Virus record (IMG/VR): IMGVR_UViG_3300028558_000094
Coordinates: 1 to 24,311 of that record
Length of the DNA stretch: 24,311 bases
Source of the DNA: a virus
Reading direction: 5' to 3' (one strand)
Below are positions 5,225 to 23,957 of the stretch, piece after piece; the first letter of the stretch is position 1; every line of letters begins with the position of its first letter. Both the position numbers and the translations under genes were made by a program. A model generated the notes under the pieces. The model made no database searches and was not told the DNA's origin. It saw only the letters and a program-made list of their open reading frames with translations.

Positions 5225-5250
5225 ACGCGCACCCTGACAGCACAACCGGC

Positions 5251-5268
5251 GGCAGCAACGCACTCAGG
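5251..5268 (-). repeat. Gene-end repeat, copy 1 (upstream of lysis cassette)
   Basis: The coding-strand core TGAGTGCGTTGCTGC (5266-5252) is identical in four places in the window; this copy extends to CCTGAGTGCGTTGCTGCC. It starts 3 bases after the TAG of the 1159-aa gene and lies just upstream of the holin. It contains no hairpin. A promoter, a processing site or a regulator binding site are the options. Confidence 0.8.
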
Positions 5269-5269
5269 G

Positions 5270-8200
5270 CTATTGCCGGGGTGCCATCGGGCCGGAATTG
5301 CGCAGGTTTTCCATCCGCGCCCGCTGCTCCGGCGTGGCGTACATATAGAAATCCTTGAGCGTGCGGCCGGACAGCCGCGTGCCCGGATTGGCCCAGACAC
5401 GGGCGTAGTAGCGTTGCAGCCCCGGCGGCACGCCGAGTTCGGTCATTTGGTTCATGGCCCCGGCCACGTCGCCGCGGAGGTACTGCCGCTGGATGTCCGG
5501 GAGTGCGGACTGCACCGCGAAATCGTGCTGCTGGCGGGCGTGGTACATCTCGCCGACCGCCGGGCCGCCAGGCGCACCCTTCGAGAACGTGACGCCGGCC
5601 ACTGGCCCGAAGGCTTGCAGCGCGTTCACTTTGGCGTCGCCCTCGCCTTTTACGAGGTCATGGAAGGCGTTGAACTGCCCTTCCGGGAACTGCGACTTCG
5701 CGATGTGCGCGACGATGGCCCCGATGTTGGCGAGATACTTGCCAGGCGTGTCGGCGTTCGGGTCGTAAATCTTCCGGCCGAAGCCCTTGTCGTTTTCCAT
5801 GATCTGCCAGACGGGCCGAGAGAACGTGCCGAGTTTGCGGCGCATCATGTCGAGCGGCCCGGTCATATAGCCGATGAACTCCTCGCCGATCTTGCCGGCC
5901 GGGTTGCGGGCGTAGATCGCCGTGCCATCCTTGGCGTAGCCGACGAGAATGCGATCCTGCCGGCCGGGCTCGTTCGTGTTCGTGGCGCTGAGCGACTGCA
6001 TGAAATTGAACGGCTGAACGAGCGAAAGCGGGTGCTCCTTCGTGCGCGTCATCGCCTCGCGGAACCGCTCGACATAGCCGTGCAGTTCCTTGTCGAGCGT
6101 CGAGTCGTTGAACATGACGTTCATCGCGCTCTGCAACAGCGAGTTGCCGACGTAGAGCATGGCCATGTCCATGCCGACCGTGGCCATCGCTTTACGACGG
6201 GCCATGGTCTTCGCGTATTTGACGGCGGTCTCTGCGCTTTCCTCCGCAGCCTCGCCGGTAAGCCCTTTGCCGAGCCCACCATCGCGCTCGATCTGCGCGA
6301 GCACGTCTTTCGGCAGGCCGGTGAACATGTCCTTCAGGACGCCGAGGTTGCCGAGCGTGAAGGTGCGCGAGAACAGCAGCATGTTCGACACCTTGCGGGC
6401 GGCGTCGGACATGGCCTCCTGCGGCAGCGAGCCGGCGAAGCGGTTGGCGAAGTGCGCGGCCACGCGGGAGGCGGTCGTGCGATCGACGCCCTTCCCCACC
6501 ATCTCGTCGCGGAAGTTGACGTAGAGCCCGGCCTGCAAATCGGCCACGCGGTCCCACAGCATCGTGTTGTGCCAGAAGTCGCCGGCCTTATCGATGGCGC
6601 GCATGGTCGCCGCGCCGGCCTCGGGGTCGAATAGCCCCGGCACGGCGCCGAGAAGCTTGGCCGTCCATGACCGGCCCGGTGTCAGGTCCGGCGCCTCCAT
6701 GATCGAGGAGATGTCCTGCTTGAAGAAGCGGTGGCCGATCGGCACGAGACCGTTGTCGATCGCCTCCCGCATTCCGGCCATGTCGTTCTTGAAGCGGTTG
6801 CCCTCGAAGTAGACCTTGAAGGTGGCCACCTTGCCGGGCATCGCCGGCAGCGCGCGGCCCCACTCAACGGCGTTGTGGATCAGCGGCGAGTTCATGATGA
6901 GGCTCATGGTCTTGCCCTTGAGCGACATCATTGCGCCGTAGAGAGGCCCCGAGCGGTGGGTCAGTACGGCCCGCAACGGCCCCTCGAAGTCGCCGTGGAC
7001 GTAGAGCGGGACCTGCTCGAAGATCGGATTTCCCTCGGCGTCCTTGACCACCTTGGCCATGTTGCCTTCGAGCGCCACGTCGCCGTTTGGCTTGTATTCG
7101 AACTTCGGCCGCCAGGTCTTGAACGCCGGGTGATCGAGTGTGAACCACTTCTGATCGGAGCCGGCCGGGATGGCGCCCTCGCTGACGGTCTCGGCACCGG
7201 TGCGCTTGCCATAGTCCTTGATATTGTTGATGAGCGTCCGGCCGGCGACGGCGTCCTCGAGCTTGGCGGTGGCCAGCGGGAGCACACGAATGTCGCGGGC
7301 GAGCTTCGCGCCGGGGCCGAGCAGCTTTTGCGCCGCCGCCTCGGTGTCCTCGGCGGTCAGATAGTTGCGTCGAAGCATATTCGAGGTGCGGGTCTTCAGG
7401 TTGAGGCCGATGCCGTTCAGCGGGATCGCGCCCTCGCCGGAGACGGCCGACGCCGCGTTGATGACCTGCCGCGGGGTGTAGGCCGGCAGGCCCTCGCCCT
7501 CGACCATGCCGAGGTCACGCGCTCGGCCCCACGCGACCTGGGCGCGGGTGTGCAGGTCGTTGACCGCGGCGCGCTCCTCCGGGGTCAGGGTCGCGAGGCC
7601 CATGTGCTCGGATTGCTGGCCCTCCTGCCGCATGACCGACTCCTCGTCGGCCGCATTCCACATGCGCTCGCGCTGCTCCGGGTCGAACCGCTTGGCGATG
7701 TCGTCGTCGATCCGGGACCACTCCCACCGGTTCCGACGCATGCCGTTCGCGAAGTCCTTGGCGATGGCCATACTGTCGGCCGTGCCCCTAGCCATAGGGG
7801 CAACGAGCATCTGAGCGTCCCGGCCGATGTCGAGGAGCTTGTCGCCAGACGCCTTTAGCGACTCGCTGATTCGTCCGGGCGCCGGAGATGGCTGATCGGA
7901 CAGGGGAACGTCCGTTGGCGCATCAGTGGCCGCCGCTGAGAGGCTGGTGGGCCTGCCGCCGGTCTCGGTCAGCACCTCCTCGTCCGCCGGGTCGATCTTC
8001 ACCGGCTCCTGCTTGGTCGTCAGATCGTGCTTCAAAAATGCATCGGTCTGGGCGTCGTTGACGGCCTCGGCGGGATGCAGCCCGTCTTGCTGCCACGCCT
8101 GCCGCAGATTTGCCTCGGTGTCCTTGCCGCCGAGCACGGTGGCGGCCTTCTTGAAATCGATCGGTGCCGGTGGCGGCCCGACGACCTGCGCTCGCACGGT

Positions 8201-8749
8201 GCCGTCCGCTGCGGTGTAGGGCCGGGCGAACTGGCCATTGCCGGCGTCGATCAGGGGCATCTTGGCCGGCACGTCGGGCGTGACACCGCCCGTCATCGCC
8301 ATGTCCTGCGAACGCTGGATCAGGGTGTCAAGAGGCTCGGGGGCATTCGGGTCGTCGCTGAAGTCCTCTTTGCGGAGGCCGGGGCCGGTGATGACCTTGC
8401 CGGACAGGACGTCGTGGCCGAGGGACACGCCGCTCGCGACCATCTCGGGGATCTGAGCGACCGTCGCCGCCAAGGTGCCGAGCGCCGCCGCGCCGTACCC
8501 CGTCACACCGCCCTGCTTCAGTTCGCCGGCCGCCCACTCCTTGATCCGCTGCGAATAGGACTTGGCGGCCATCTCCTCGAACGCCTTGCCCATAACAGAG
8601 CCCTGCGCCACGCGCGCGGCAAAGGCCGGCGACTGCGGCACGGGCTCGAGCGGCGGCTTCGCCTCGAACGGATTGCCCTCGACCGGCTCCAGGGTCGGGC
8701 CGGCCGGCTGGTCGAAGGGGTTACCGTCTACGGGCTCGAGCGTTGCCAT
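5270..8749 (-). CDS. Large internal virion (ejection) protein, 1159 aa
   Basis: The position, last in the structural series after gp12-like and two internal-protein genes, and the very large size match the biggest DNA-ejection protein of podoviruses (T7 gp16 position). The start at 8749 overlaps the previous stop as TAATG. The N-terminus repeats a short motif: LEPVDGNPF, LEPVEGNPF and a third LEPV within the first 40 residues, a kind of Pro/Phe linker common at the ends of phage internal proteins. The middle is rich in charged helices. Late hydrophobic helices (MATVGMDMAMLYVGNSLLQ) and many Met/Ala helices could enter the membrane. No transglycosylase or other enzyme motif was visible, unlike T7 gp16. 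The C-terminus ends NSGPMAPRQ. Confidence 0.65.
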   Translation of the reverse strand: MATLEPVDGNPFDQPAGPTLEPVEGNPFEAKPPLEPVPQSPAFAARVAQGSVMGKAFEEMAAKSYSQRIKEWAAGELKQGGVTGYGAAALGTLAATVAQIPEMVASGVSLGHDVLSGKVITGPGLRKEDFSDDPNAPEPLDTLIQRSQDMAMTGGVTPDVPAKMPLIDAGNGQFARPYTAADGTVRAQVVGPPPAPIDFKKAATVLGGKDTEANLRQAWQQDGLHPAEAVNDAQTDAFLKHDLTTKQEPVKIDPADEEVLTETGGRPTSLSAAATDAPTDVPLSDQPSPAPGRISESLKASGDKLLDIGRDAQMLVAPMARGTADSMAIAKDFANGMRRNRWEWSRIDDDIAKRFDPEQRERMWNAADEESVMRQEGQQSEHMGLATLTPEERAAVNDLHTRAQVAWGRARDLGMVEGEGLPAYTPRQVINAASAVSGEGAIPLNGIGLNLKTRTSNMLRRNYLTAEDTEAAAQKLLGPGAKLARDIRVLPLATAKLEDAVAGRTLINNIKDYGKRTGAETVSEGAIPAGSDQKWFTLDHPAFKTWRPKFEYKPNGDVALEGNMAKVVKDAEGNPIFEQVPLYVHGDFEGPLRAVLTHRSGPLYGAMMSLKGKTMSLIMNSPLIHNAVEWGRALPAMPGKVATFKVYFEGNRFKNDMAGMREAIDNGLVPIGHRFFKQDISSIMEAPDLTPGRSWTAKLLGAVPGLFDPEAGAATMRAIDKAGDFWHNTMLWDRVADLQAGLYVNFRDEMVGKGVDRTTASRVAAHFANRFAGSLPQEAMSDAARKVSNMLLFSRTFTLGNLGVLKDMFTGLPKDVLAQIERDGGLGKGLTGEAAEESAETAVKYAKTMARRKAMATVGMDMAMLYVGNSLLQSAMNVMFNDSTLDKELHGYVERFREAMTRTKEHPLSLVQPFNFMQSLSATNTNEPGRQDRILVGYAKDGTAIYARNPAGKIGEEFIGYMTGPLDMMRRKLGTFSRPVWQIMENDKGFGRKIYDPNADTPGKYLANIGAIVAHIAKSQFPEGQFNAFHDLVKGEGDAKVNALQAFGPVAGVTFSKGAPGGPAVGEMYHARQQHDFAVQSALPDIQRQYLRGDVAGAMNQMTELGVPPGLQRYYARVWANPGTRLSGRTLKDFYMYATPEQRARMENLRNSGPMAPRQ

Positions 8750-10458
8750 TACTGCTTCACCCGGAAATACTTGCCATCCTTCTGGACGTACCACTGCCCG
8801 TCAGCGGCCTTCCTCGCACCTTCCATCGGCGGCTTTTCGACCGGCGCGTTCTGCACGTCGACGCCCGTCACCGTCTTGCCAGGACCGGTCAGGTTCATCG
8901 ACCCCTTGTCATTCGCGAAATCGAGCCCCTGCTGCATGGTGACGTGGTACTTCGCGATGTTCTCGGGACGACCGAAGAAGTTGGGCGAGGATGGGTCGTA
9001 TAGCGAACGCGGGTCCTTGCCGGCCGCGCGCAAGGCCGCCTCCTCCGTGATCGCGTCGCGCTGCGCGGCGTACATCTTCTGCTGGCCGAGCGCGGAGTGA
9101 ATGCCGTACTGCGCGAGATAGCCGTCGACCGTGCCGGCGTATCGCTTGAAGAACTCCGTGCGGTCGGATTTCAGCGGCGGGTCGTTCGGCATAAGGTCGC
9201 GCTGCTTGACGAGGCTCAGTCGCACCGCCGCGTCCTGCCGGGACAACTTACCAGCCGCCTCGGCCTTGAGGATGTCGACGGAGTTGGTCGGGTTGCCATC
9301 GACGAACATGCGCGCGTCGAGGTCAGTGACCGTGCCCTGATCGCTGACTGTCGGCCCCGGCTTCTGCTGGCTCTCGCCCCAATCGAGATAGGCCTTGACC
9401 GCGGTCGCGGCGTTCGGTGCGGTCGGGTTCTTTTTGGCGACATCGAGCACATCCTTGAAATAGGTCGGCGCCAGCGTGACCTTGTTCGTGGCCGGGTCGA
9501 TGCTGACGTTCTTCGCGAAGGCGTCGTTGACGCCATTGTGGACGGCGTTCTCGGCAAGCTGCCGGTTATAGAGTTCGGTCTGCTTAACTAGTAGCGTGTT
9601 AGTCCGCGCCTGCACCTTCGCGGCTTTTCCGAGCGCCAATTCCTCCTGACCGTTGATGAGGTCGGGGTAAGCCGTCGCCCATTTCTTGGCCTCGGCCTCG
9701 GGATCGGCGGCGGACTGGATCGCACCGAACGCGCCTGACTTGACGATGGTCTCCCTCATCTTCTGCGTGAGGTCCATCTTCGCCTTGGCCGCATCGACGC
9801 CCTTAATGTTCGGCGAGCTGTCCACCACGCCGCCGACCACGCTGTCGACGCTGCTGAGTAAATGCGGCACCGATGACGGATCGCTGACCGCCGTGTTCGA
9901 CATGCTCGTCGCGGTGTTGTGGATATTCAGCGATGCCGCGGTGCCGGCCAGCGTCGACATGTCCGCCGACGTCTTCTCGAACATGTGGTTGCGCAGCGAC
10001 TCGGTATGCGACTCGGCCCACCGCTGCCCGCCTTCGGTAAGGAAGCCCTGGTTGAACTTTTCCAGCGACGGTTCGAGGACATTCTCGCGGAATTTCTGCG
10101 CAACGGTCGGGTCGTTCGGGTCCGCGTTCTTCGCGGTGTCGTTCCACGCCTGCGTCAGTTGGTCGTTCAACCCGGCCCATGCCGTCGCGCCGTGACTGAT
10201 TTCCTGATGCTCGATATACTGCGTCGCGGTGTTGCCGACGTCCTTGATCGTGCTGGCGACATCGCGCGCGACACCCTCGCCAACCGATGCCGTCTCGGCA
10301 CCGAACCGCTGCGTTTCATTGCCGAGTTCTTGGGTCGCCGCCGCGGCCTGACTGTAAAGTCGGCCACCGAGGCGCGCTGCATTGGCGGTCGCCTCGACGC
10401 CGGTCTCGGACGGGTTAAGACTGAGTGGCGGCGCGGCGTAGGTGCGGATTTGCGGCAT
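8749..10458 (-). CDS. Internal virion (ejection) protein, 569 aa
   Basis: The protein is almost all alpha-helical, Ala-, Asn- and Gln-rich, with little hydrophobic clustering, as expected for the middle ejection protein (T7 gp15 position). It opens MPQIRTYAAPPLSLNPSETG, which resembles the start of internal core proteins of short-tailed phages, and ends in a small strand-rich piece (GQWYVQKDGKYFRVKQ). The segment LARRLGGRL-like near residue 30 and repeated NTAT/ST pieces suggest a surface-packed helical bundle. AAGGA lies 6 bases before the ATG at 10458. Gene order (199-aa, 569-aa, 1159-aa) supports an ejectosome trio. No catalytic motif is seen. Confidence 0.65.
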   Translation of the reverse strand: MPQIRTYAAPPLSLNPSETGVEATANAARLGGRLYSQAAAATQELGNETQRFGAETASVGEGVARDVASTIKDVGNTATQYIEHQEISHGATAWAGLNDQLTQAWNDTAKNADPNDPTVAQKFRENVLEPSLEKFNQGFLTEGGQRWAESHTESLRNHMFEKTSADMSTLAGTAASLNIHNTATSMSNTAVSDPSSVPHLLSSVDSVVGGVVDSSPNIKGVDAAKAKMDLTQKMRETIVKSGAFGAIQSAADPEAEAKKWATAYPDLINGQEELALGKAAKVQARTNTLLVKQTELYNRQLAENAVHNGVNDAFAKNVSIDPATNKVTLAPTYFKDVLDVAKKNPTAPNAATAVKAYLDWGESQQKPGPTVSDQGTVTDLDARMFVDGNPTNSVDILKAEAAGKLSRQDAAVRLSLVKQRDLMPNDPPLKSDRTEFFKRYAGTVDGYLAQYGIHSALGQQKMYAAQRDAITEEAALRAAGKDPRSLYDPSSPNFFGRPENIAKYHVTMQQGLDFANDKGSMNLTGPGKTVTGVDVQNAPVEKPPMEGARKAADGQWYVQKDGKYFRVKQ

Positions 10459-10467
10459 GTTGTTTCC

Positions 10468-11067
10468 TTAGAGCATCGCCAGCGCGGCTATGCCCGCAGC
10501 GGCCTTGATGCCGCCGGTTATCATCCCGGCCGTCTGCGCAAATGACCCGAGATCATCCTGCTTCTGAGCAAGCGCGTCCTGCTCGCTCGCGACGTTGTTC
10601 TCGACACCGGCCGAATAGCGCGCATATCCGGCGAGGTTCGTGTAAGCCTGCTGCTGCTCGTTGTAGCCGGCCTCAGTGATGAGCCCCTGCTGACCGACGA
10701 CCTGCTTGGTCAACGCGCCCTCCTGCGCGCCCATGCGCAGGATATCGAGGCCACTCCCGCTCATCGTAAAACCGGAGCCGGCGACATCCGCCTGCGTCGT
10801 GCCGAGGCCCTGATAAATCTGCCGCTGCGTCTGCATTTCCTTGACGGCGGTCGATTGCTCGGTGAACTGCTCGTTCTGGTGAGCAAGCGTCGCCGCTTCG
10901 TCGTAGTTCGTGGCCTCAACGAGATCGCCCTGCGCTTTGAGGCGCGTCCCTTCGGCGGTAATGCGCGTGCCGTCGGCCTGAATTTGAAGGCCTTGGTTCT
11001 TCTCGATGCCGCCAAAGATATCTCCGGCAGCGCCAGCGAAGTCACCGAACATCGTGCCGAGTGCCAT
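10468..11067 (-). CDS. Small internal virion protein (T7 gp14-like position), 199 aa
   Basis: The N-terminus (MFGDFAGAAGDIFGGI) is hydrophobic and Gly/Ala-rich. Residues 28-50 carry a short repeat of the form x-A-(D/E)-G-T-R (QADGTRITAEGTRLKAQGD). The middle is a Gln-rich helix with the family-type stretch AGSGFTMSGSGLDILRMGAQ at about residues 95-114. The C-terminus has a hydrophobic helix (GMITGGIKAAAGIAALAML). A small, Gln-rich, amphipathic protein with membrane-active ends, directly after the gp12-like gene, fits the T7 gp14 role of forming the outer-membrane part of the ejection channel. AGGA lies 7 bases before the ATG, and it begins 3 bases after the gp12-like stop. Confidence 0.65.
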   Translation of the reverse strand: MALGTMFGDFAGAAGDIFGGIEKNQGLQIQADGTRITAEGTRLKAQGDLVEATNYDEAATLAHQNEQFTEQSTAVKEMQTQRQIYQGLGTTQADVAGSGFTMSGSGLDILRMGAQEGALTKQVVGQQGLITEAGYNEQQQAYTNLAGYARYSAGVENNVASEQDALAQKQDDLGSFAQTAGMITGGIKAAAGIAALAML

Positions 11068-11070
11068 GGC

Positions 11071-14000
11071 CTAGTCCTGCGTCTGTAGAAATTCGGTGAC
11101 GGCGACGACCGTTGCGGGGTACGGGCGCGTGATCTGCCAGCACAGCATTCCGTCGAAGCTGTTGTCGTCGTCGAGTTCCTGAATGTGTAGGCCGGTCTTG
11201 GTTTGCAGCGGCGTGAGCGCCGCGCCGCCGTCCGGCGACGTCTTCAGGTTCGCCGTCCGCATCGTGCCAGCGAACGACGTGCCGAACTTGATGCCCTGCG
11301 TCTGGAACAGCAGCGCGGCGTACTTGCTCGCGCGACGCTTCTTGCCGAGCGCCGAGCCGGTGCGCGCGCCGGTCTCCTGCGGCGCCACCGGACGGACGAT
11401 CTGCCCCTGAGACGCGAAGGTGAACCCGACCACGACGGGGAATGTGCCGGAGTAGGCCGCGACATAGGCCGACGTGAACAGACCGCCGGCCGCGCCATAG
11501 GGCACGTTCACGATGCCGTTCGACACGGCATAGTCTCCGCAGTCGAGGCCGCCCGCCATCACCGCGACCGTCTTTCCGTTCAACGGCCACAAGCCGCCAA
11601 GCTGGAAATAGGACTGACCGCCGATCACGACGTTCTGCGTGAACGATGGCGCGATACCGCTGTCGACGTGCCAGGCATTGAACAGCGTCGTGCTCTCGTC
11701 TGGGATGTTCGTCAGCACCTCGACCTGCCGCAGTCCCGTCCCGCTGTCGAATGTCACCATCGTCATCGTGTCGAGCGTGCCGTCTTCGCTCGTGCCGTCG
11801 CAGATACTCTCGATAGTGCGGCTGCCACCGTGCGTGTGGCTATGCCAGCCGATGAAGGTAGGCCCCTGCGACGTCATCAGTGTGTCGCGCTTGTAGCTCG
11901 CGCCAGAGAGCGCGCCGGCACCATCTCGGAACCAGATCGTCGGCACGAGTTCCTGCTGATAGGCTATCTCCGAGATGCCGCTCAGCGTCAGGTGCTTCGC
12001 CTTCTCGGTCAGGTTCGGCGCGGTGAACTTGCCGGAAAACACGTCGGCAAAATACTCCATGATCTTGCGCAAATACCGCTGCACGAAGACGAGTGTGTGC
12101 TCGGTGCGGCGCGGCTCGATGTTCGCGCAGCCGATGCGCGTGACGCGGTGCGCCTGCATGTTGAGCGGGGTCAACGGGCTGTTCAATGTCGACGCCTGCA
12201 CAAGCCATTCGCCGGCCTGCGTGCCGCAGAGGATGCCCTGCTGGTCAGGCTCCATCCAGAAGATAGCGTTCACGTCCGGCGCGGCAAACGTGTAGTCGAT
12301 GGCGCTGGCGTCGGTGACAGTCCCGTCCTGCTCGGTCGGCGCGAAATTGAAGATGTCGTTCGGTACGCTGCCGTCGACACGGTTCCCGACCGCGCCGGAC
12401 AACCATAGCCGGCCCTCGTGGTAGGTGCCAACGGTCGGCCATCCTGTCGTGTCGCTGAACACGCCGAGGCGCCACGTGCGGATGCCGCTCGTGCCGGGAA
12501 GCGCGGTGCCTAGAATTTCGACGCTGACGCTCGCGCCGCTCGACCCAGCCGGCGAAAAGAACTCGACCTGGGCGATCGAGATCGTCTGTGTAAACTGGAA
12601 GCCAGCGGACCCGGCCGGAAGTAGCGTAGTGGACGTAATAGCCTCGACCCACACATAGGGGAATGTCGTTGCGGTGTCGTTTGACAAAATCGTCACGGCC
12701 GACGCCCCGAGCGCGGTTGCTCCAGTCCCGGTCCATTGCGGAGCCGTATAGGTGCCAAGAACGGTGCCGTCAGAAGCCGAAGACGGCGCGGTTTGCTTGC
12801 CGCGGAGATTGATCGTCAACGTGACTTCGGTAATGTCCTTGTAGCTGCTGTTCGCAATGCCGCCGTCCGTGGGGGGGATGATCGTCACGAACCCGATCTT
12901 CTGCGCAGACGCGCTGTGGTAATCCTTCCCGACATAACCGGAGAGAGTGTAGGTCTGCCCCAGGATGCCGCTGCCGTCGCTAAAGGTGGCAGTTGAGGAT
13001 GCCGAAGTGGCTTTGTTCGGCACGCCGTCGAACGACGCGGCAACGCCGCCGCTGCCTGTCAACGTCCCGATATTCGCCGAACCCGACAGGCTGCCGGAGA
13101 TGAGATTGAGAAGGCCGGTGATCTTTCCCCACGTCCAGTTCGCCGCGTTCGGGTTGATCTCCCAACTCGTCAGGTCGGTGCCGGGAATGACGCCAGCGGA
13201 CACGCTCTTGAGCGCGGTCCAATAGGCGCCGGCGTAGGTGACCGAAAGTCCGGTGGTGTAGGTGCTCCCCACGGCCCACAGCGGCGGCTCGTAGTTCATC
13301 CGCATCATGCGGCCGATGTCGGTCGCCAGAAAGCCGTTCGGCCCGACCGCCACGGACGGAGACACCTTCAGCCATTGCGTCGAATGCGTGTCGGGCTGGT
13401 AGTTGAGGTTTTGGTCGACGAGCGACTTGTAACTGTTCGAGCTATAGGTGACGAAATCGCCGATGCCGTAGGTCTGCGTCGCCGACCACGCATTGAACGA
13501 CACCGTGCAGTTGACGATGCCGCTCGTGCCATCCGGCGTAAGGATCGCGCCGCCAGCCACAGGATCGAGGTACGGTCCATCCTTGAAAACTGCGGTGTTC
13601 AGAGCGAACGTCGCCGACTGCGTATTGCTGGGATCGGTGACGACGGACAGCACGTTCGGAGCGTAGGCGCCGTGAAGAAAGACGGACTGCTTCTCGGCCT
13701 GGACAGAGCGAAGCGACGCGAGGTCTGTCGCCTTATACGGCGTCGTGATCTCCATGACGCGCTTGACATTGCCGGAAACGAATGTGCCGAGTGTTGACCC
13801 GTCGATGGCCGTTCCGGTCATCGCACCGGCGATGGAAAAATGCGTCGAGTCGGTGACCGTAATCGTGATCGGGCGGTTTTGCAGGAGCGGATCGTTGACG
13901 CCGAGATCGGTGAAATAGACCGTATTCCCGGTTGACCAGCCGTGCGGTGCAGAGGTTTGCACCACGGCCGGGTTTGCGGTCGATATTGCGGCCACGGCCT

Positions 14001-14304: not shown

Positions 14305-14306
14305 CG

Positions 14307-15587: not shown

Positions 15588-15595
15588 GGCGGCCT

Positions 15596-16747: not shown

Positions 16748-16765
16748 TCGACATTCCCGACTGTG

Positions 16766-17143
16766 TTACGAGAACGTCACCTTGATCGTGAAGGCGATCG
16801 AGTCGTTCGTTGCGAGGTTGATGACCGTGAAGTCGGCGTAGACGTCCATGTTGCCGCCGGTCGGCGGCGAACCGCTGCCAACCGCGTCGAAGGCGCCGAC
16901 CTCGGTAATGGCGCGCGAGCCGGCCGCGGTGATCGTGCCGGTCAGCGTCATATTGTCGTTCGTGACGGTGGTGGTGCCCTGCGCCGCCGAGGCGGACACG
17001 CGGGATTCGGTGGTCGTGGTCGTCGTCACCACGTTCGCCGTCGCGGCGGCAGCCGAACCGGTGCCCCACTGAAGCCACCAACTCGCCGCGACCAGCAGCG
17101 ACGTGATCCGCGCAAGACCGTTGTTCTGGACGCGAGCCGTCAT
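16766..17143 (-). CDS. Small virion-type structural protein, 125 aa
   Basis: Start 17143 overlaps the upstream stop as ATGA and has AAGGG 7 bases upstream. The sequence is Thr- and Ala-rich and beta-rich: SWWLQWGTGSAAA, TTTTTTESRVSASAAQGTTT and SRAITEVGAFDA at about residues 80-91. The pattern WGTG, TESRV, and ITEVG(L/A)FDA is one I recall in small phage structural proteins next to tail genes. It ends NDSIAFTIKVTFS, a likely C-terminal strand. It probably decorates the tail or the neck; the exact place is unknown. Confidence 0.6.
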   Translation of the reverse strand: MTARVQNNGLARITSLLVAASWWLQWGTGSAAAATANVVTTTTTTESRVSASAAQGTTTVTNDNMTLTGTITAAGSRAITEVGAFDAVGSGSPPTGGNMDVYADFTVINLATNDSIAFTIKVTFS

Positions 17144-17319
17144 CGGAATGCCCTTTTCAGGATGATCCAGCCGTTCACGGCCCATCGCCGCAGCGGGTTC
17201 ACGTGCCAGTAGGAGATGACCCCAAGGCTTTCGACGCGCCCGTCCGCACGGATGACCGTGGCTTCGACGCGCGCCTCACGCGCTTTCCCTGATGCGATTA
17301 GTCCGCCGCTGACTGCCAT
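17140..17319 (-). CDS. Small conserved-type phage protein, 59 aa
   Basis: ATG 17319 (MAVSGGLIASGKAREARVEA) is taken as start, although no clear ribosome binding site precedes it. The frame is open further upstream through the gene-end repeat, but that part reads as non-coding. The C-terminal half, GVISYWHVNPLRRWAVNGW, then IILKRAFR, is aromatic and basic and reads like a peripheral membrane or nucleic-acid-facing helix. It starts 28 bases after the end of repeat copy 2. Overlap with the next gene is ATGA. Function is unknown. Confidence 0.55.
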   Translation of the reverse strand: MAVSGGLIASGKAREARVEATVIRADGRVESLGVISYWHVNPLRRWAVNGWIILKRAFR

Positions 17320-17346
17320 GTCGCCACAACGCCATGCGGCGGGAAC

Positions 17347-17364
17347 GGCAGCAACGCACTCAGG
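17347..17364 (-). repeat. Gene-end repeat, copy 2
   Basis: CCTGAGTGCGTTGCTGCC on the coding strand, identical over 18 bases to copies 1 and 4. It starts 1 base after the TGA of the 99-aa gene; the TGA of the invariant 15-base core starts 3 bases after it. It lies in a 46-base gap before the 59-aa gene. Confidence 0.8.
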
Positions 17365-17365
17365 C

Positions 17366-17665: not shown

Positions 17666-17666
17666 G

Positions 17667-17888
17667 TCAGCCGCCTACGTCGAAGCCGGCCGCGCTGACC
17701 TGCTGGGCATTCTCGAAGAACCGCTCGATGGCTTCCAGCGCCTTGACGACTTCGAGCCGGCTTGGGGTCACACCATCGAGCACACGAAACTCGAAAAGGT
17801 CGCTCGCGGACGATGACGTTCCGGTGGTGTAGTCGAGATAGCTGGTCCCCTCGGCACCGCGCGCAAGGCTCACGTAATGGTTCGACAT
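17667..17888 (-). CDS. Small conserved-type phage protein, 73 aa
   Basis: The product MSNHYVSLARGAEGTSYLDY, with FEFRVLDGVTPSRLEVVKAL and AIERFFENAQQV, is a compact alpha/beta protein. It resembles small proteins I recall next to phage capsid genes in Alphaproteobacteria (MSNHYVSL... RLDVVKALE... FFEN). Its C-terminal helix is amphipathic. AGGAG lies 6 bases before the ATG, one of the better ribosome binding sites of the late operon. Function is unknown. Confidence 0.6.
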   Translation of the reverse strand: MSNHYVSLARGAEGTSYLDYTTGTSSSASDLFEFRVLDGVTPSRLEVVKALEAIERFFENAQQVSAAGFDVGG

Positions 17889-17902
17889 GCTTTAGCTCCT
17901 GC

Positions 17903-18223
17903 CTATTCCGAAAGGCCGCCGTACCCGCCTTCGACCGCCTTCAGGGCGGCAATGAGTGCGGCACGCAGTTGGTTGCGGCTCGTAACGACCGCGCTATTCC
18001 AGACAACGGTCACGTCGCCATTGATTGAGGCGGCGAGCGCCGTGTAGTCGGTATTGAGCGTGGTCACGTGCGCCTGCGTCGGGCTCGCGCCGTCCGCGAC
18101 CAGCGTGGCGACGTCTGCCGTGACCGTGGCGAAGTTCGGGATCGAACCACCTTTGACGGAGGAGCTATAGGCTCCCCCGCCAAGAGACTGGCCGACCGTG
18201 ATGTTGACGGCGGCAAGGGCCAT
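17903..18223 (-). CDS. Small structural or unknown protein, 106 aa
   Basis: The sequence starts MALAAVNITVGQSLGGGAYS and continues with Thr-, Val- and Ala-rich segments (FATVTADVATLVADGASPTQ) and a helix RNQLRAALIAALKAVEGGYG. Composition and position after the capsid-decoration gene favour a virion protein. The gene starts 6 bases after the preceding stop. No domain or motif was recognised. Confidence 0.55.
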   Translation of the reverse strand: MALAAVNITVGQSLGGGAYSSSVKGGSIPNFATVTADVATLVADGASPTQAHVTTLNTDYTALAASINGDVTVVWNSAVVTSRNQLRAALIAALKAVEGGYGGLSE

Positions 18224-18229
18224 CGTCGG

Positions 18230-18769
18230 TTACTCGACGTAGTTGACGCAGACGCCGAGCTTGCCGGTGCCGGTGGTGACGGCGGTCGTGTGAACCACGG
18301 CCACGATGTCGAAGAAGCCGCCCGGGTCGGACGTGAGGCCGAGCGCCGACCACAGCGGCTTGTTGCGGAGCGCGAGCGTGTAGTTGCCGCTCTCGTTCGT
18401 CTTGTCGACCTGCGCCACGGCGGACGAGCAATCGATGTCCGACGCGAAGAACTGATCGCCAGTGGTCGGAACGATGACGCCTTGGTTCGCCGGCTGCGTG
18501 CCATCAACCGTGCTGTCGGAGTAGTAGACCGACAGGTTGAAGGCGCCGGCACCCTGCGCTTCGCTCTCGAACAGGACCTGCTTGACCTTGGCCGCGCTCG
18601 GGATGCGAACGAGACGGTAGGTCGAGCCGGCCGCCATCGTCGTCGAGACGGTGACGTAGCCGCTGACGCTGCGAAGGTGGCCAGGAGCCCCCTCGCCGGT
18701 GGTGAGAGCCACGACAGGAACGGCGTCGAGGTTCGTGATCGGGGTGGACTTGAGTGCTTCGGTGGTCAT
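18230..18769 (-). CDS. Probable capsid decoration or minor head protein, 179 aa
   Basis: It lies 12 bases after the major capsid gene, with AAGGA 8 bases before the ATG. The signature STYRLVRIPSAAKVKQVLFE (residues 49-68), then GAGAFNLSVYYSD, a FFASDIDCSSA piece and LWSALGLTSDPGGFFDIVAV, belongs to a family I recall directly after capsid genes in phages of Alphaproteobacteria. It is beta-rich with a hydrophobic core and ends GVCVNYVE. A decoration protein or minor head protein is most likely from position; direct evidence is lacking. Confidence 0.65.
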   Translation of the reverse strand: MTTEALKSTPITNLDAVPVVALTTGEGAPGHLRSVSGYVTVSTTMAAGSTYRLVRIPSAAKVKQVLFESEAQGAGAFNLSVYYSDSTVDGTQPANQGVIVPTTGDQFFASDIDCSSAVAQVDKTNESGNYTLALRNKPLWSALGLTSDPGGFFDIVAVVHTTAVTTGTGKLGVCVNYVE

Positions 18770-18781
18770 GTGGGCGGTTCC

Positions 18782-19714
18782 TTACGGCGTCACATCGGCG
18801 GCGGTGGAAGTGTCGGCGCACTTGACCTTGAGCAGCCGGCCTGGTTCGAGGCGCGTCGCACCGACCGTCATGCTCGTGTAGAGCTGGTACGGCTGGCTCG
18901 ACAGCCAATCGGCCTGGCTGATCTTGTTGTAGACGTCCTTCCAGATGCCGAGGTAGAGGCCGGACTTCACGAAGGCCATGTTCGACCGGATGCTCGACGC
19001 GCTCGACAGGCGCTCCGAGTAGAGGATGTCGAAGCCCATGAAGCGGGTGATCTTGCCCTCCGCGTTGCGGGTTGGGGCCTGATCGCCGCTGAAGTCCGAC
19101 GACATGACCTGCGCCTGGTTGAGCAGATCGCTCTCACCCTGCGAGTTCGTGACCCACGTCATCGGCTCGCGATCGACGGGGACCTGTGCCTTGCGCATGA
19201 TGCGCTTGGCTTCGATCATCTTCGCCACCGTCAGGCCGGACGAAGCCGCCGACTTGAACGTGTCGCTGATTTCCCATGCGCCGGAGAACGAGGCCCACGT
19301 TTCGGTCGATAGGCTACCGGCGTCGGTGCCGATCTGCGCGTCGCCGAAGGCTGCGGCGATGATTCGGTCGTCCCACTCGCGGGCGACCGCGGCCGACGAT
19401 TCCGACACGTACTGCGAGGTCGGGTCGGACAGGAGACGCAGCTTGTCGAAGGTGTCGATCAACTGCGTCGCTTCCTTGTCCACCGGGAAGACCCAGCGGC
19501 GAGTGAAGTCGACGTCCTGACGATTGAGCGGCGCGAAGCGGCCCGCGGGCGCCTGCATCTGGATCGCACCGATGTACTGGATCGGCGAAGCCTGCTTGCC
19601 GATGTGCGCGCCTTCCATGACGCGACCGCGGAGCATGGACTGCTCCTGCTGAAGCTTGAGGTTCAGCAGCGAGGAGAATTGGGTAACGGCGAGTTTGATC
19701 AGGTTCTCGGACAT
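18782..19714 (-). CDS. Major capsid protein, 310 aa
   Basis: The start MSENLIKLAVTQFSSLLNLK, then LRGRVMEGAHIGKQASPIQY, RQDVDFTRRWVFPVDKEATQ and LIDTFDKLRLLSDPTSQYV are the conserved parts of the HK97-fold capsid family found in many short-tailed phages. AVAREWDDRIIAAAFGDA (about residues 109-126) marks the start of the next conserved part. The end YTSMTVGATRLEPGRLLKVK is typical. No cleavage site is evident. The gene is preceded by the longest gap of the late operon (185 bases), with direct repeats and a gene-end repeat, and has only a weak GGGA ribosome binding site. It self-assembles around the scaffold. Confidence 0.85.
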   Translation of the reverse strand: MSENLIKLAVTQFSSLLNLKLQQEQSMLRGRVMEGAHIGKQASPIQYIGAIQMQAPAGRFAPLNRQDVDFTRRWVFPVDKEATQLIDTFDKLRLLSDPTSQYVSESSAAVAREWDDRIIAAAFGDAQIGTDAGSLSTETWASFSGAWEISDTFKSAASSGLTVAKMIEAKRIMRKAQVPVDREPMTWVTNSQGESDLLNQAQVMSSDFSGDQAPTRNAEGKITRFMGFDILYSERLSSASSIRSNMAFVKSGLYLGIWKDVYNKISQADWLSSQPYQLYTSMTVGATRLEPGRLLKVKCADTSTAADVTP

Positions 19715-19765
19715 GGCTGGTCCCGTTGCGGTTTGAGCGAAAGAATGGTGGCGTTTCCCTTTGCA

Positions 19766-19844
19766 GGGGGCCGTCAGACCTTCGGCCGTGTCCGTGAACC
19801 GGGGGCCGTCACTTGTCGCGATCTAGCCGTGTCCTTTCGGGGGC
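19766..19844. repeat. Direct repeats in the capsid leader
   Basis: On the plus strand, GGGGGCCGTCA occurs at 19766-19776 and 19801-19811, each followed by GCCGTGTCC (19785-19793 and 19826-19834), and a third partial GGGGGC starts at 19839. The unit is about 35-41 bases. It lies in the untranslated leader of the capsid gene. On the coding strand the left end is followed by a small CCCT-GCAA-AGGG hairpin. Only the capsid gene has such a leader here. Confidence 0.7.
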
Positions 19845-19887
19845 TATCGACGCCGCGAATGTCCGCACACTAGCCGCGCCGCCGGGC

Positions 19888-19902
19888 GCAGCAACGCACT
19901 CA
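19888..19902 (-). repeat. Gene-end repeat, copy 3 (upstream of capsid)
   Basis: The 15-base core TGAGTGCGTTGCTGC is intact; flanking bases differ from the other copies. Its TGA is the stop codon of the 57-aa gene. It begins the long untranslated leader of the capsid gene. Confidence 0.8.
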
Positions 19903-20073
19903 CTTCTTGCGCATGGCTTCCAGACGAAGCCCGAGCCGAGCACGCGCGCCGTCCTTGCCGGGGTCGTCTTTGTGCTTCTCCATGTAGGCGTTGGTGGACA
20001 TCCCGGCGCGCTTGGCCGCAGCCTTTTCCGCGCCGGGATGTTTGATCGCTTTGCTGATCCACTTAACGGCCAT
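19900..20073 (-). CDS. Small basic phage protein, 57 aa
   Basis: The start at 20073 lies 1 base after the upstream stop (TGA-C-ATG). The product AVKWISKAIKHPGAEKAAAK, with GARARLGLRLEAMRKK at the end, is a Lys-rich helical protein resembling a small family (KWI..AIK.PG...) often found next to phage capsid genes; its role is unknown to me. The stop codon is part of the gene-end repeat. It may bind nucleic acid or the prohead. Confidence 0.6.
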   Translation of the reverse strand: MAVKWISKAIKHPGAEKAAAKRAGMSTNAYMEKHKDDPGKDGARARLGLRLEAMRKK

Positions 20074-20074
20074 G

Positions 20075-20395
20075 TCAGGCCCTCCGCTTGTCGACCGCCA
20101 TGTGCGCGAGCGCAGTCTTCGCCCGGTGTGCGCGGTCAAGCGCCGCCGGGTCGATCATGTCGGGGCCTTGCAGCCCGCCTTTGCACGGGTGGCCGCAGTA
20201 CGGCTTGCCGCTGATGACGCAGCCCTTCGGGCCGCATTCGAGCGGGCAGGCCGTGTTTGTGATGCCAGCGAGCTCGTCCGGGATCGCGACCGCCTTGACG
20301 GCGGCCGGCGCGAGGTGGCGCGCGCGGCGGGCCTTCTTGCGGCGCGTGGCTTTTCGTTTGGTCGGCGGGGCCTCGATGGTGGTGGTGTCGGTCAT
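20075..20395 (-). CDS. Cys-rich, basic head-region protein, 106 aa
   Basis: The first 30 residues are a disordered, highly basic tail (PPTKRKATRRKKARRARHL). Residues 50-72 hold a five-Cys cluster with a His, CPLECGPKGCVISGKPYCGH and a last C just after. The pattern C-x3-C-x4-C-x7-C-x2-C suggests a zinc-binding or disulfide-linked knot, followed by KGGLQGP. This cluster type recurs in small proteins I recall beside phage capsid genes. It overlaps the scaffold stop as ATGA. A DNA- or prohead-associated role is plausible; no enzyme motif is present. Confidence 0.6.
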   Translation of the reverse strand: MTDTTTIEAPPTKRKATRRKKARRARHLAPAAVKAVAIPDELAGITNTACPLECGPKGCVISGKPYCGHPCKGGLQGPDMIDPAALDRAHRAKTALAHMAVDKRRA

Positions 20396-21249
20396 GCCGC
20401 GACCCCCGTGATCTGCGCAATCAGGCTTTCGTGCTCACGCCGGGCCGCAGCGTCGCCTTTGAACAGCCGATCGACCCATTGTTTGTCGGCTTGGAGCTCA
20501 GTGAGCCGAGCCTGCGCGCTGGCCTGCGTGGTCGGCACCGTGCCCTTGCCGTCGACGAAGGTGTCCTCGCTGGTGCCCGCGCCGATCTTGCGGAATATCT
20601 CCATCACCCGGGAGTAGCCCACCACGTTTTCGAGCGCGGTGATGTCTTCAGGGCTGACGCCGAGGCGCTTTGCCCCCTGCATCGCCGTGAGTTTGTTGAG
20701 GTCCTTGTTCGGCCCCCACGATTTGTCGAGTTCGGCCTTTTCGGTGTTGATCTTCGCCGTTTTCTCGGCTGCTTCCGCCGCGTCCGCGCCTTCCATGAAT
20801 TTCACGACCGACTGAGCAAAGGCCGTCGCAGCATCCTTCGGGAGATGGTTCGCAAAGGCCGTCTGGCGGATCGTGTCGGCGAATGCATCGTCGATCGCAG
20901 TACCGTCCGCAAACTTCACAGCGGACAAGTCGTAGCCCTTCGGGTCGTTCGGCTTCCCGAGGCGCTGATAGACGCTGTTCCATCCGGCTTCGTCCTTCGC
21001 ATCCTTGGGGAGCCGGATCAGTTGCTCCGGCGGCACGCCGACGAACTTCTGCGCCTCGCGCGCGGCCTTCGTGGCTTCGAGCGCGATGGTCACCGGGTCG
21101 TCGGCCTTCCACGCCTTGTTCTGCCAGTAGCCGACCGTCTCGGCGTCCGCCTTGCCCTCGTACCAAGGCTTCGCAGCAGCGGCGGTGGCCGCAGCGGCGG
21201 CGCCCGGATCGGTGGTGGTCGTTGTGGTCGTGGTGTCTCCGTCAGCCAT
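20392..21249 (-). CDS. Head scaffolding protein, 285 aa
   Basis: It sits between portal and capsid genes, is acidic/Ala-rich and helical, and has a low-complexity N-terminus (eight Thr in a row, then AAAAATAAAA). Residues 28-100, KPWYEGKADAETVGYWQNKA, then AREAQKFVGVPPEQLIRLPK and WNSVYQRLGKPNDPKGYDLS, match a scaffold type I recall in phages of Alphaproteobacteria. The C-terminal helix (RLFKGDAAARREHESLIAQI) is the expected capsid-binding part. It acts inside the prohead and leaves before DNA packaging. The Thr run is encoded by an ACC/ACG/ACA series. It overlaps the Bbp19-like gene by 8 bases. Confidence 0.75.
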   Translation of the reverse strand: MADGDTTTTTTTTDPGAAAAATAAAAKPWYEGKADAETVGYWQNKAWKADDPVTIALEATKAAREAQKFVGVPPEQLIRLPKDAKDEAGWNSVYQRLGKPNDPKGYDLSAVKFADGTAIDDAFADTIRQTAFANHLPKDAATAFAQSVVKFMEGADAAEAAEKTAKINTEKAELDKSWGPNKDLNKLTAMQGAKRLGVSPEDITALENVVGYSRVMEIFRKIGAGTSEDTFVDGKGTVPTTQASAQARLTELQADKQWVDRLFKGDAAARREHESLIAQITGVAA

Positions 21250-21520
21250 CGTTCTCTCCTGGTTTGACGCGCGGCCTGCGCAGCGCGAGTTGAAGGATGT
21301 CGTCTTCGGTCAGGTGCACGAAGTTCTGGATACGCAGCCAGACGAGCCGCTTTCCTTCCTCCAGCGCGTGCATTCTGGCGTCGGCGCGGAAACACGGCTC
21401 GGCTGCGTTGGTGAACGGCGCAAGATCGGCGAGAACCGCCTGCCCTGCCGGCGAACCGAAACAGACGCGGTAAGCGCGCTGCAATTCCTCATTCGCGGCG
21501 GCCATTTCTTCGGGTGTCAT
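21242..21520 (-). CDS. Bbp19-like small head protein, 92 aa
   Basis: The layout ELQRAYRVCFGSPAGQAVLA (residues 12-31), then DLAPFTNAAEPCF, HALEEGKRLVWLRIQNFVHL, is that of the Bbp19-like family named after the Bordetella phage BPP-1 protein, which lies in head-gene clusters. The G-x-GQAVL and EG-(K/R)-R landmarks are in the expected order. Its function is not established; its place between portal and scaffold suggests a head-assembly helper. It overlaps the portal stop as ATGA. Length is as expected for the family. Confidence 0.7.
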   Translation of the reverse strand: MTPEEMAAANEELQRAYRVCFGSPAGQAVLADLAPFTNAAEPCFRADARMHALEEGKRLVWLRIQNFVHLTEDDILQLALRRPRVKPGENDG

Positions 21521-23271
21521 TGCGGAGCGCCTTGCTGCGGACCCCCGACGCCTTGCTGCGGCCCGATGCCGGGCTGGTTCTTCTGCACCGTGGCCTGCGC
21601 TTTAAGCATCGCGGCCTGCGCCGGCATTGCTTGGATCTGAGCCTGCCGTGCCGCGGCCTTAGCGCGGTTCTGGCGCTTGACTGCGATCTTGCGCGGGTCC
21701 GCCATCCAGCTTTCCGGCACGCCCTGAATGTCGGCGATGTCGGGCAGCGCAGTATCGAAGTCGAACGGGTCGAGATACGAGGCGTCCTGCGTGATGTTGG
21801 CGATTTCCTTCGCCGTCTCCACCGTCCGCATGAAGCCGGCCGCCTCGCCCGCACGCTGCGTCTTCGCCAGCGGCGAGGTGTACTCGACGTGGTACTCGCC
21901 GCGCGCTTCGCGGAGCCGCGCCGGCATGGGAGGCAAGAGGTTCTGCGCCGCAAGCACGTCGAGTTCGCGGTCGATCATCTGGCCGAGGCCGGTCTGGAGC
22001 TTGCCCATCGTCGGGGCGATCAGGATGCCCTTCTGATTGACGATCTCCGTGACCTGCGTCGCGGTCAGCACCTTTTCTTCGAGGATCAGTTTGAACAGCG
22101 AGACAAGGAAAGCGTCGTCGATCAGCGACCGCTCCATGTCCATCATCTTCTCGTTGATCGCGATATTGCCGGTCGGCAGCACGTCGACGAGGCGCTTGCC
22201 GTCCTGCGACATGGCACCGGGGTTCATCGCGCCTGGCCGCAACGAGAAATTCGTCAGGCCATCGTCCGTCGTCAGCAACACCGGATCGGCGGCGCGGTGA
22301 CCCTGCTTCAAGAATGTCGTCTTCTGCGCGTTGAGCGTCTTCAGCGCCGGCAGGACCATCATCGCCGGGCCGCGCCCGTACACCTCGCCCGGCCCTTCGT
22401 CATAGCGAAATGCGGCGATCGGCAGAGAGCGATAGCCGCTCTCCGGCGCCATCAGGCACTGCCCCTCGATGGACACATAGTAAGAACCATATGGGAGGGC
22501 GCGCGCGTCGTAGCGGCGCGGGTCGTAGTCATCGCGCGGACGCACGCAATGCAGAAATTGATAGGGAAATTGGCTGTTCGTCGACAGTGCCGTGTGCAGG
22601 CCCGGCGGCAATCGATCCATGCCCCACTTCTGCGCGGCCTGCGCGGCGGTCAGCTTGAACCATCGAATGAAGCCGTCGATCTGCCCCTGGTGGTTTTCCC
22701 GCCAGTACATCTCGCCCATCGGCACGGCCTTGTAGCGAATGCCGCGCACGCCGCCGAATAGCCGCGTATCGAGCGCATCGACGAACATAGCGGCATTGCC
22801 GTAAGCCCCGACACCGCGCCAGTTGTTTTGATTTTGGCCGGTGAAGTTCGCGACCGCGGCATAGCGATATTTGAACAGCAGGTTCGTGGCCTGCTCGAAC
22901 CACAGCCGCGTCAGCCGATCCTTCATCACGTAGTCGTTGTCGGCGCGAAGCTGATGCCACTGCATGTTGCGCGGCGTCAGCATCGAGTCGCAGATCGCGG
23001 CAAACCGGTGGAGCGCCATCTGGCCCGACGAGTCGACCTGCTGCTGCGTTTTCTTCTGGCCCGGTGTGTTGTAGGCGCCATAGAAAAACGTGTTGCGCGA
23101 CGGCGGATCGATCAGCGCGGCCACCTCCTCCCACTGACCGGAGAAGCCGGAATTTCGCCACGAATACATCTGCGAGAACTCTTGCAGCACATCGCGCACG
23201 ATCTGCTGCTCGCGCTCCGGAATGACGCGCGGGACCGCGGCGTTGGCCGTGTATGGGTCAGTGGAGGACAA
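21517..23271 (-). CDS. Portal protein (T7-like head-tail connector), 584 aa
   Basis: The podovirus portal family is recognisable: WEEVAALIDPPSRNTFFYGA, then LHRFAAICDSMLTPRNMQWH, GAYGNAAMFVDALD, GEVYGRGPAMMVLPALKTLN, FSLRPGAMNPGAM and a Gln/Ala-rich helical C-terminus (crown) ending in QQGVGGPQQGAPQ. It forms the dodecameric DNA gate at one vertex. No ATG is available near the N-terminus; the first in-frame start with a ribosome binding site is TTG at 23271, 9 bases after GGAGG (GGAGGCGCGCCGCCTTG). The next Met is at residue 35, inside conserved sequence. The TTG start overlaps the upstream gene by 14 bases. Confidence 0.85.
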   Translation of the reverse strand: MSSTDPYTANAAVPRVIPEREQQIVRDVLQEFSQMYSWRNSGFSGQWEEVAALIDPPSRNTFFYGAYNTPGQKKTQQQVDSSGQMALHRFAAICDSMLTPRNMQWHQLRADNDYVMKDRLTRLWFEQATNLLFKYRYAAVANFTGQNQNNWRGVGAYGNAAMFVDALDTRLFGGVRGIRYKAVPMGEMYWRENHQGQIDGFIRWFKLTAAQAAQKWGMDRLPPGLHTALSTNSQFPYQFLHCVRPRDDYDPRRYDARALPYGSYYVSIEGQCLMAPESGYRSLPIAAFRYDEGPGEVYGRGPAMMVLPALKTLNAQKTTFLKQGHRAADPVLLTTDDGLTNFSLRPGAMNPGAMSQDGKRLVDVLPTGNIAINEKMMDMERSLIDDAFLVSLFKLILEEKVLTATQVTEIVNQKGILIAPTMGKLQTGLGQMIDRELDVLAAQNLLPPMPARLREARGEYHVEYTSPLAKTQRAGEAAGFMRTVETAKEIANITQDASYLDPFDFDTALPDIADIQGVPESWMADPRKIAVKRQNRAKAAARQAQIQAMPAQAAMLKAQATVQKNQPGIGPQQGVGGPQQGAPQ

Positions 23272-23722
23272 GGCGGCGCGCCTCCGGGTCGAGCGGGTTC
23301 ATCGTCGGGTCGATGCGGCGGTCGGCGACGATCCACTTCTGCGCGACGTTGAACATTTCGATGCGCTGGTCGTCGGGCAGCTTCAATTCGTCGGCGAGCC
23401 GGCGAAACTGGCCCTGCATGTCTGCGGTATGTTGAAAGATCGCGACGTTCTTTTCGATCTTGCCGGAGCGATTGACGATGTCGGCGACCACGGCGCCGGT
23501 CTTGTCGATCCGGCCGCATGTCGTCGGGAACGGCGGCGCGATGCTGGAGAAGCCCGGGAAGGCGACGCGCAGCAGCACCGGCATGGCGTCGTCGTAGGTG
23601 TGTGCGAGCATCGACAGCACGATCATGCCGATCGGCCTGCGGCGCGTGGCGATCAGCGCGCGGACCTGCCAGCCGTCGCGCAATTCCTGCGCGTGCTTGC
23701 GAACGGTGAGGTCATCCGGCAC
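23258..23722 (-). CDS. Phage head-region protein of unknown function, 154 aa
   Basis: The frame starts at GTG 23722, which overlaps the previous gene by 11 bases, and ends inside the portal start region. The product looks coding over its length: VRKHAQELRDGWQVRALIAT, then RRRPIGMIVLSMLAHTYDDA, PGFSSIAPPFPTTCGR and a helical, acidic second half with DELKLPDDQRIEMFNVAQKW. A later Met at residue 33 is an alternative start. It is located between terminase and portal, where packaging or head-assembly helpers occur. No family was recognised with confidence. No strong ribosome binding site is seen before the GTG. Confidence 0.6.
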   Translation of the reverse strand: MPDDLTVRKHAQELRDGWQVRALIATRRRPIGMIVLSMLAHTYDDAMPVLLRVAFPGFSSIAPPFPTTCGRIDKTGAVVADIVNRSGKIEKNVAIFQHTADMQGQFRRLADELKLPDDQRIEMFNVAQKWIVADRRIDPTMNPLDPEARRLVLH

Positions 23723-23912
23723 GGAACGAACCCAGGAGGTTCATCGCGGCCATACCCATCGTATTCGCGCCGGCCGAAGACGGGTCGGCCTGACCGCTCG
23801 CCTTCATGAGCCGCTTGCGGCGCTCCTCCTCGGTCTCGCCGACCTGGTTGGTAAGCGCGTTGCCGTCGCCCAACCCGAGATCGAGGGAGGCCGGTGAATA
23901 GGAGTTCGCCAT
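23712..23912 (-). CDS. Small phage protein between terminase and portal, 66 aa
   Basis: ATG 23912 (MANSYSPASLDLGLGDGNAL) is chosen because it starts after the gene-end repeat; the open frame upstream reads through the terminase end in another frame. The middle TEEERRKRLMKASGQADPSS is a charged helix followed by a Gly/Ala/Met C-terminus (GMAAMNLLGSFRAG). Small genes of this size and composition, with a TEEERRKR-like helix, occur between terminase and portal in podovirus-like phages. No Shine-Dalgarno sequence is visible upstream, which is unusual for this operon. Confidence 0.55.
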   Translation of the reverse strand: MANSYSPASLDLGLGDGNALTNQVGETEEERRKRLMKASGQADPSSAGANTMGMAAMNLLGSFRAG

Positions 23913-23939
23913 GCTGTGAAGGTGCGCAGACGGCGCGCG

Positions 23940-23957
23940 GGCAGCAACGCACTCAGG
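23940..23957 (-). repeat. Gene-end repeat, copy 4 (after terminase)
   Basis: CCTGAGTGCGTTGCTGCC on the coding strand, identical over 18 bases to copies 1 and 2. The TGA inside it is the stop codon of the terminase gene, and it lies in the 40-base gap before the 66-aa gene. Confidence 0.8.

Follow-up and report, generated by a model that had tools for sequence, protein, structure and literature searches.

The middle promoters of phage T4 carry a MotA box in place of the −35 element and a sigma70-type −10 element at the normal distance and are read by host RNA polymerase (RNAP), and the lambda cI transcript made from PRM is an example of a leaderless mRNA. Leaderless genes whose −10 element adjoins the open reading frame (ORF) have been described (PMC12340547), and the start-associated sequences (SAS) of cluster K mycobacteriophages lie immediately upstream of start codons (PMC3203893). 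Here, we analyzed a 24,311-nucleotide (nt) stretch, referred to below as the window, which comprises positions 1 to 24,311 of IMG/VR record IMGVR_UViG_3300028558_000094 and is part of a podophage late operon. The window contains four exact copies of a 15-mer, TGAGTGCGTTGCTGC, and their sequence context leads us to propose, with a probability of roughly 0.8, that these copies form the upstream (−35-side) half of phage late promoters read by sigma-dependent, presumably host, RNAP.

All four copies are on the minus (coding) strand (5252-5266, 17348-17362, 19888-19902, and 23941-23955), and each sits at a gene end. No further copies were found in the window with up to 2 mismatches; with up to 3 mismatches, there were 5 matches versus 1.1 expected. 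Since only 1.1 matches are expected even at this relaxed threshold, four exact copies are far beyond chance. Two copies are identical across 19 bases, and a third departs from them at one end base, such that 18 bases are common to three copies. The TGA inside the 15-mer is the stop codon at 19888 and 23941, and the stop codon ends 3 bases ahead of the 15-mer at 5252 and 17348. A preliminary description of this DNA had reported the four positions at gene ends, the lack of other copies, the 18 shared bases, the TGA that doubles as a stop codon in two copies, and a stop codon at or within 3 bases of each copy, and all of these statements held when checked. It overlooked, however, that the next gene's ATG lies 39 to 40 nt past the first G of the core, GTGCGTTG, at three of the copies. 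Two extra GTGCGTTG sites of the same phage lie just beyond the window in a second contig (L033), which is 100% identical to the window over 4752 bp and extends 3.7 kb beyond its right end.

The element is conserved in relatives, which were retrieved for the conservation counts via the capsid protein alone. The core was found 146 times on the late-gene (capsid) strand of these relatives versus 16 times on the opposite strand, while the reversed-sequence control gave 10 and 21 matches. When 127 distinct sites were aligned on the core without gaps, a conserved GTGCGTTG[CT]TG was followed by a second box, [CA]ANNTTCC, at offsets 28 to 35, with almost no conservation between the two. The motif thus reads GTGCGTTGYTG (box 1), 17 bp, and then YANNTT (box 2). 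A matrix covering both boxes, applied to the window and 14 large relatives (13 fetched whole and one to 39 kb), gave 69 late-strand matches at ≥14 bits versus 2 on the opposite strand, with 0 to 1 in shuffled sequences. Box 2 most often begins at offset 28, with 27 to 29 being common, and carries the −11A and −7T hallmarks of a −10 element (A in 62 to 69% of sites at offset 29 and T in 57 to 67% at offset 33). Taking TTGYTG (offsets 5 to 10) as the −35 element and YANNTT (offsets 28 to 33) as the −10 element gives a spacer of 17 bp (the mode of a 16- to 18-bp range on the coding strand) and places +1 at offset 40. Since the second box is equally strong at sites without a nearby ATG, this geometry is independent of translation signals. 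Box 1 itself occupies −40 to −30, is not a normal −35 element, and is common to the sites within a genome; consensus sigma70 promoters showed no excess over shuffles along the operon. The motif, its strand bias, and its fixed spacing are established by sequence statistics; promoter activity and late timing are predictions. The "spaced late promoters" of the preliminary description survive in this bipartite −35/−10 motif, with its late-strand placement, starts at +1, and homogeneity within genomes.

The position of the start codon points to the same geometry. An ATG is present at offsets 39 to 42 in 74 of 147 sites, versus about 1.6 per offset elsewhere. When a −10 matrix was trained solely on the sites with no nearby ATG, it placed the ATG 11 to 14 nt past the start of the −10 box in 78 of the 99 other sites (shuffle control: mean, 31; maximum, 43), and the position of the ATG tracked that of the −10 box (rho = 0.41, P = 8e-5). 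Counted from the first base of the −10 box, the ATG typically lies 12 to 13 nt downstream, and the box ends 6 to 7 nt before the start codon. Genes that start at +1 also largely lack a Shine-Dalgarno (SD) sequence, which was found in 2 of 29 (7%) versus 338 of 556 other genes (61%) (P = 4e-9). The base at −1 of these genes was C or T in 29/29 cases (C in 25/29 versus 242/556), and a pyrimidine at this position fits transcription starting at the A of AUG. Based on the ATG position and the −1 pyrimidine, we infer that the transcript 5′ end lies 6 to 7 nt after the −10 box. About half of all sites, and three of the four in the window (those preceding a 66-amino-acid [aa] gene, a 59-aa gene, and a DUF7940 gene), look like sources of leaderless mRNA, which we propose is why the SD sequence is missing. 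The earlier remark that the genes after copies 2 and 4 lack a clear SD sequence was correct and would be accounted for in this way. In a held-out check on contig L033, which represents the upstream part of the window phage, the element was again followed by an ATG at +40, here at the position of terS.

The corresponding features of the window are as follows.

23941-23955, minus strand: copy 4 of box 1, GTGCGTTGCTG (−35 TTGCTG at 23942-23947), after the terL stop codon
23919-23924, minus strand: predicted −10 box CACCTT (motif), spacer 17, predicted +1 at 23912
23712-23912, minus strand: 66-aa gene after terL, ATG at the predicted +1 (offset 40), no SD sequence, homologue in all 15 genomes compared
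19888-19902, minus strand: copy 3 of box 1, upstream of the capsid gene, its TGA being the preceding gene's stop codon
19867-19872, minus strand: predicted −10 box TAGTGT (motif, read from sequence), spacer 16, predicted +1 near 19860
19750-19846, minus strand: capsid mRNA leader with three tandem hairpins, GGCCCC(GCAA)GGACACGGCC (R1, 19824-19846; R2, 19783-19808; R3, 19750-19772)
18782-19714, minus strand: major capsid protein gene (PHROG match, phrog_3437), 185 nt from the element
17348-17362, minus strand: copy 2 of box 1 (motif), with a poor −10 box, CGTTGT, at 17326-17331
17140-17319, minus strand: 59-aa ORF (from sequence), ATG at offset 40 (predicted +1), stop codon overlapping the next start (ATGA)
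5252-5266, minus strand: copy 1 of box 1 (motif), before the lysis cassette
5231-5236, minus strand: predicted −10 box CAGGGT (motif, read from sequence), spacer 16
4982-5224, minus strand: 80-aa DUF7940 protein of the lysis cassette (domain match), ATG at offset 39 (predicted +1)
4495-4998, minus strand: endolysin (domain match, Phage_lysozyme, PF00959)

Elsewhere in the window, a gene for a Concanavalin A-like lectin domain protein (PF13385; 15596-16747, minus strand) belongs to the tail block downstream of copy 2, and a methyltransferase-domain gene (PF13578; 2512-3159, plus strand) marks the border between an early-type plus-strand region and the late operon.

In most sites, the stop codon lies anywhere between 0 and about 14 nt from the element, whereas the box 1-to-box 2 and box 2-to-ATG spacings are tightly held. 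This argues against the earlier proposal that the element functions as a stop-associated signal. Its association with stop codons is best read as incidental, with the roughly 40-bp gap being the promoter itself and the closeness to stop codons resulting from compact gene packing.

The capsid gene differs in having a distant start codon. Its promoter (copy 3) would produce a leader of about 150 nt with three conserved hairpins, and this triple-hairpin arrangement between copy 3 and the capsid gene is kept in nearly all capsid relatives. Across 46 relatives, 92% of cells pair versus 83% in shuffles, and 14 of 19 pairs have changed on both sides; the covariation score was 0.31 versus 0.15, with 0 of 500 shuffles scoring as high and every slid version scoring far lower. 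Support for the hairpins is comparative, since the window leader alone folds no better than shuffles. No Rfam family was found for either the leader or the element. The leader is possibly a coat-protein operator or another riboregulator.

Inverted repeats are also found over the −10 boxes of two promoter classes. At the capsid gene sites of many relatives (e.g., L082 at about 9825-9850, L109, L098, and L101), a GC-rich inverted repeat overlaps the −10 box, with arms that vary yet stay complementary (e.g., GCGCGG-CAGTTT-CCGCGC). At the terS promoters of relatives (e.g., G013, G006, G009, L064, and L098), the palindrome TAACNNGTTA or TAATTTGTTA spans the −10 box and is a possible operator for a second regulator.

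In the mechanism that we propose, each copy would act as box 1 (−40 to −30), separated by a 16- to 18-bp spacer from a −10 box; sigma-dependent host RNAP would read these late promoters, and at about half of the sites the start codon would coincide with +1, yielding a leaderless mRNA. A phage-encoded DNA-binding factor would recognize box 1 and bring RNAP to it late in infection, much like T4 MotA, which substitutes for −35 recognition. Such a factor is probable because box 1 is not a normal −35 element and its variants track the genome. The flanks of box 1 are alike within genomes and different between them (0 of 2,000 permutations were as homogeneous), and the core itself is changed on the late strand of two relatives, to GTGTGTTG in G013 (6 versus 1) and to GTACGTTG in G010 (3 versus 1). 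With core variants shared by the sites of one genome but not from genome to genome, one expects the factor to be encoded by the phage.

The best candidate for this factor, judging from gene content, is a family of proteins of about 170 aa whose genes lie immediately upstream of terS. Of the 14 large relatives, 13 encode it, and the remaining one (G019) is the sole genome in that set without the element. The factor is likewise encoded by L033, where it is the window phage's own candidate (8254-7580, minus strand), and by L049, which was retrieved solely through the 15-mer; these two contigs were taken further out of a larger set of 15-mer matches in viral_contigs. Three fragments retrieved through the protein (L174, L175, and L180) carry it as well. 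The whole genomes of MW202898 and BUCT708 contain neither element nor factor, such that all three whole genomes without the element (these two and G019) lack the family. The sharpest independent case of co-occurrence comes from Bradyrhizobium sp. ISRA432, whose 46.6-kb circular replicon NZ_CP094518 was found via a tail protein at 26% identity. This replicon encodes the candidate factor (WP_280970212.1; E = 6e-31) together with five copies of GTGCGTTGCGG; every copy is on the late strand, and one lies exactly 40 nt before an NCBI-annotated start codon. Although labeled a plasmid, NZ_CP094518.1 (L185) carries integrase, S24-type repressor, portal, and capsid genes and looks like either a phage-plasmid or a prophage that has excised. 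Bradyrhizobium, through this one related replicon, is the only host named.

Scans of bacterial genomes with the capsid and with the candidate factor gave no relatives, no cultured phage among 50,697 records carried the factor, and a five-sequence factor profile found few new phages. The family had no Pfam match, and the member tested had no PHROG match. The predicted structure (pLDDT of 75) has helices compatible with an N-terminal helix-turn-helix (HTH), and many of its insignificant PDB matches were to XRE-like/HTH regulators; we treat this weak resemblance as a clue that falls short of an identification. Beside the candidate gene in L033 lies a small HTH ORF on the opposite strand (about 7400-7650, plus strand) that is weakly similar to sigma region 4.

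Several other explanations were weighed. The preliminary description had pictured phages with their own RNAP, and promoters of a single-subunit, T7-like enzyme would indeed be expected to show such sites with genome-specific variants. However, the box-gap-box geometry is that of sigma-dependent RNAP rather than one contiguous block of about 20 bp, and PF00940 had no match in any of the 14 largest relatives (T7 control, E = 1e-109); within the reach of PF00940, and with the control working, such a polymerase is excluded, which leaves this explanation scarcely credible. An RNA-level signal in the transcript after each gene end, acting in antitermination, processing, or translation, would suit a short linear box at gene ends and the GC-rich inverted repeats that follow some copies. 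Yet there is no conserved fold at the window copies (z-scores near 0, one at −1.7), and a terminator scan was empty, so that terminators and RNA folds at the element were discarded; moreover, a translation signal cannot explain why the same two boxes lie about 190 nt from the capsid start or why the −10 box tracks the start codon. We regard this explanation as highly improbable.

Alternatively, the copies could be repressor sites like those of the mycobacteriophage stoperator system, in which asymmetric, one-orientation sites at gene boundaries are bound by an HTH repressor of about 180 aa that blocks transcription in the lysogen. The sites of the element are likewise asymmetric, share one orientation, occupy short intergenic gaps, and come with phage-specific variants and a similar-sized, HTH-like candidate protein, traits that the L5 sites and repressor share (PMC9283540). 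Stoperators nonetheless predict no second box at a fixed distance with −11A/−7T, no start codons at +1, and no loss of SD sequences; in addition, the late strand carries nearly all of the sites, and the gene for the candidate lies beside terS, not with the integrase and repressor. A stoperator-like role is thus very unlikely. Finally, instead of the terS-adjacent family, a different small HTH protein of the phage, sigma-like or otherwise, could recognize the promoters, given the weak sigma region-4-like HTH matches in G003, G012, L033, and G011. Because these proteins are mutually unrelated, all under the curated cutoff, not conserved across element-bearing genomes, and in one case on the opposite strand, sigma region-4 proteins were rejected as the conserved factor, and we consider this possibility unlikely.

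Some observations weigh against late promoters read by sigma-dependent RNAP with the help of the terS-adjacent family. The −10 box is weak overall, and copy 2 in the window has a poor one; the extra inverted repeats over the −10 box at the capsid and terS copies fall outside what the promoter model explains; and at some sites the start codon is 55 to 220 nt distant, which means that not all initiation is leaderless. The predicted factor structure had no significant PDB match, and the link between factor and element is only a correlation, one in which the relatives are not phylogenetically independent, so that the co-occurrence amounts to fewer independent events than the number of genomes listed would suggest. 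The co-occurrence with the protein family, like the coincidence with start codons and the lack of SD sequences, is directly counted, while the start site and the role of the protein are predictions.

Taken together, the chances seem about even that temperate podophages and phage-plasmids from soil, with at least one member in Bradyrhizobium, form a family whose entire late program is driven by a dedicated set of activator-dependent promoters yielding mostly leaderless mRNAs, that a new HTH-like activator family of about 170 aa codiverges with the core, and that the capsid gene alone is expressed via a triple-hairpin leader. If true, late operons, true start codons, and a probable master regulator could be read from sequence in a large uncultured phage group. 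This would also be a rare case of leaderless translation built into phage late morphogenesis and lysis genes, and the genome-specific core variants allow a direct test of how specifically the candidate regulator recognizes DNA.

These features set the window apart from the systems closest to it. Its capsid and portal are distantly related, at low identity, to those of HTVC010P-type pelagiphages, and the closest relative with an annotation (MW202898) and phage BUCT708 differ in lacking both element and factor. The likeness to mycobacteriophage SAS that had been noted earlier holds for short asymmetric repeats before genes, mostly in one direction and some with an additional inverted repeat, but not for placement, since box 1 lies at −40 or further, with the ATG 39 to 42 nt from the core's first G or much further away rather than adjoining it (PMC3203893). 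Like cluster A stoperators (PMC9283540), the element is asymmetric, located at gene boundaries in one orientation, and paired with an HTH-like protein of similar size; unlike them, it comes with −10 boxes and starts and is predicted to activate, not stop, transcription. As in known leaderless mRNAs, the −10 box ends 6 to 7 nt before the start codon and no SD sequence is present, although here the arrangement is regulon-wide in late phage genes and tied to a phage-specific box. There is also a parallel with T4 middle promoters, which similarly have a nonconsensus, activator-type box at the −35 place that is common to a regulon. The candidate activator looks unrelated, no direct comparison with MotA having been made, and the promoters described here differ from those of T4 in their box sequence, in serving late rather than middle genes, and in placing the start codon at +1.

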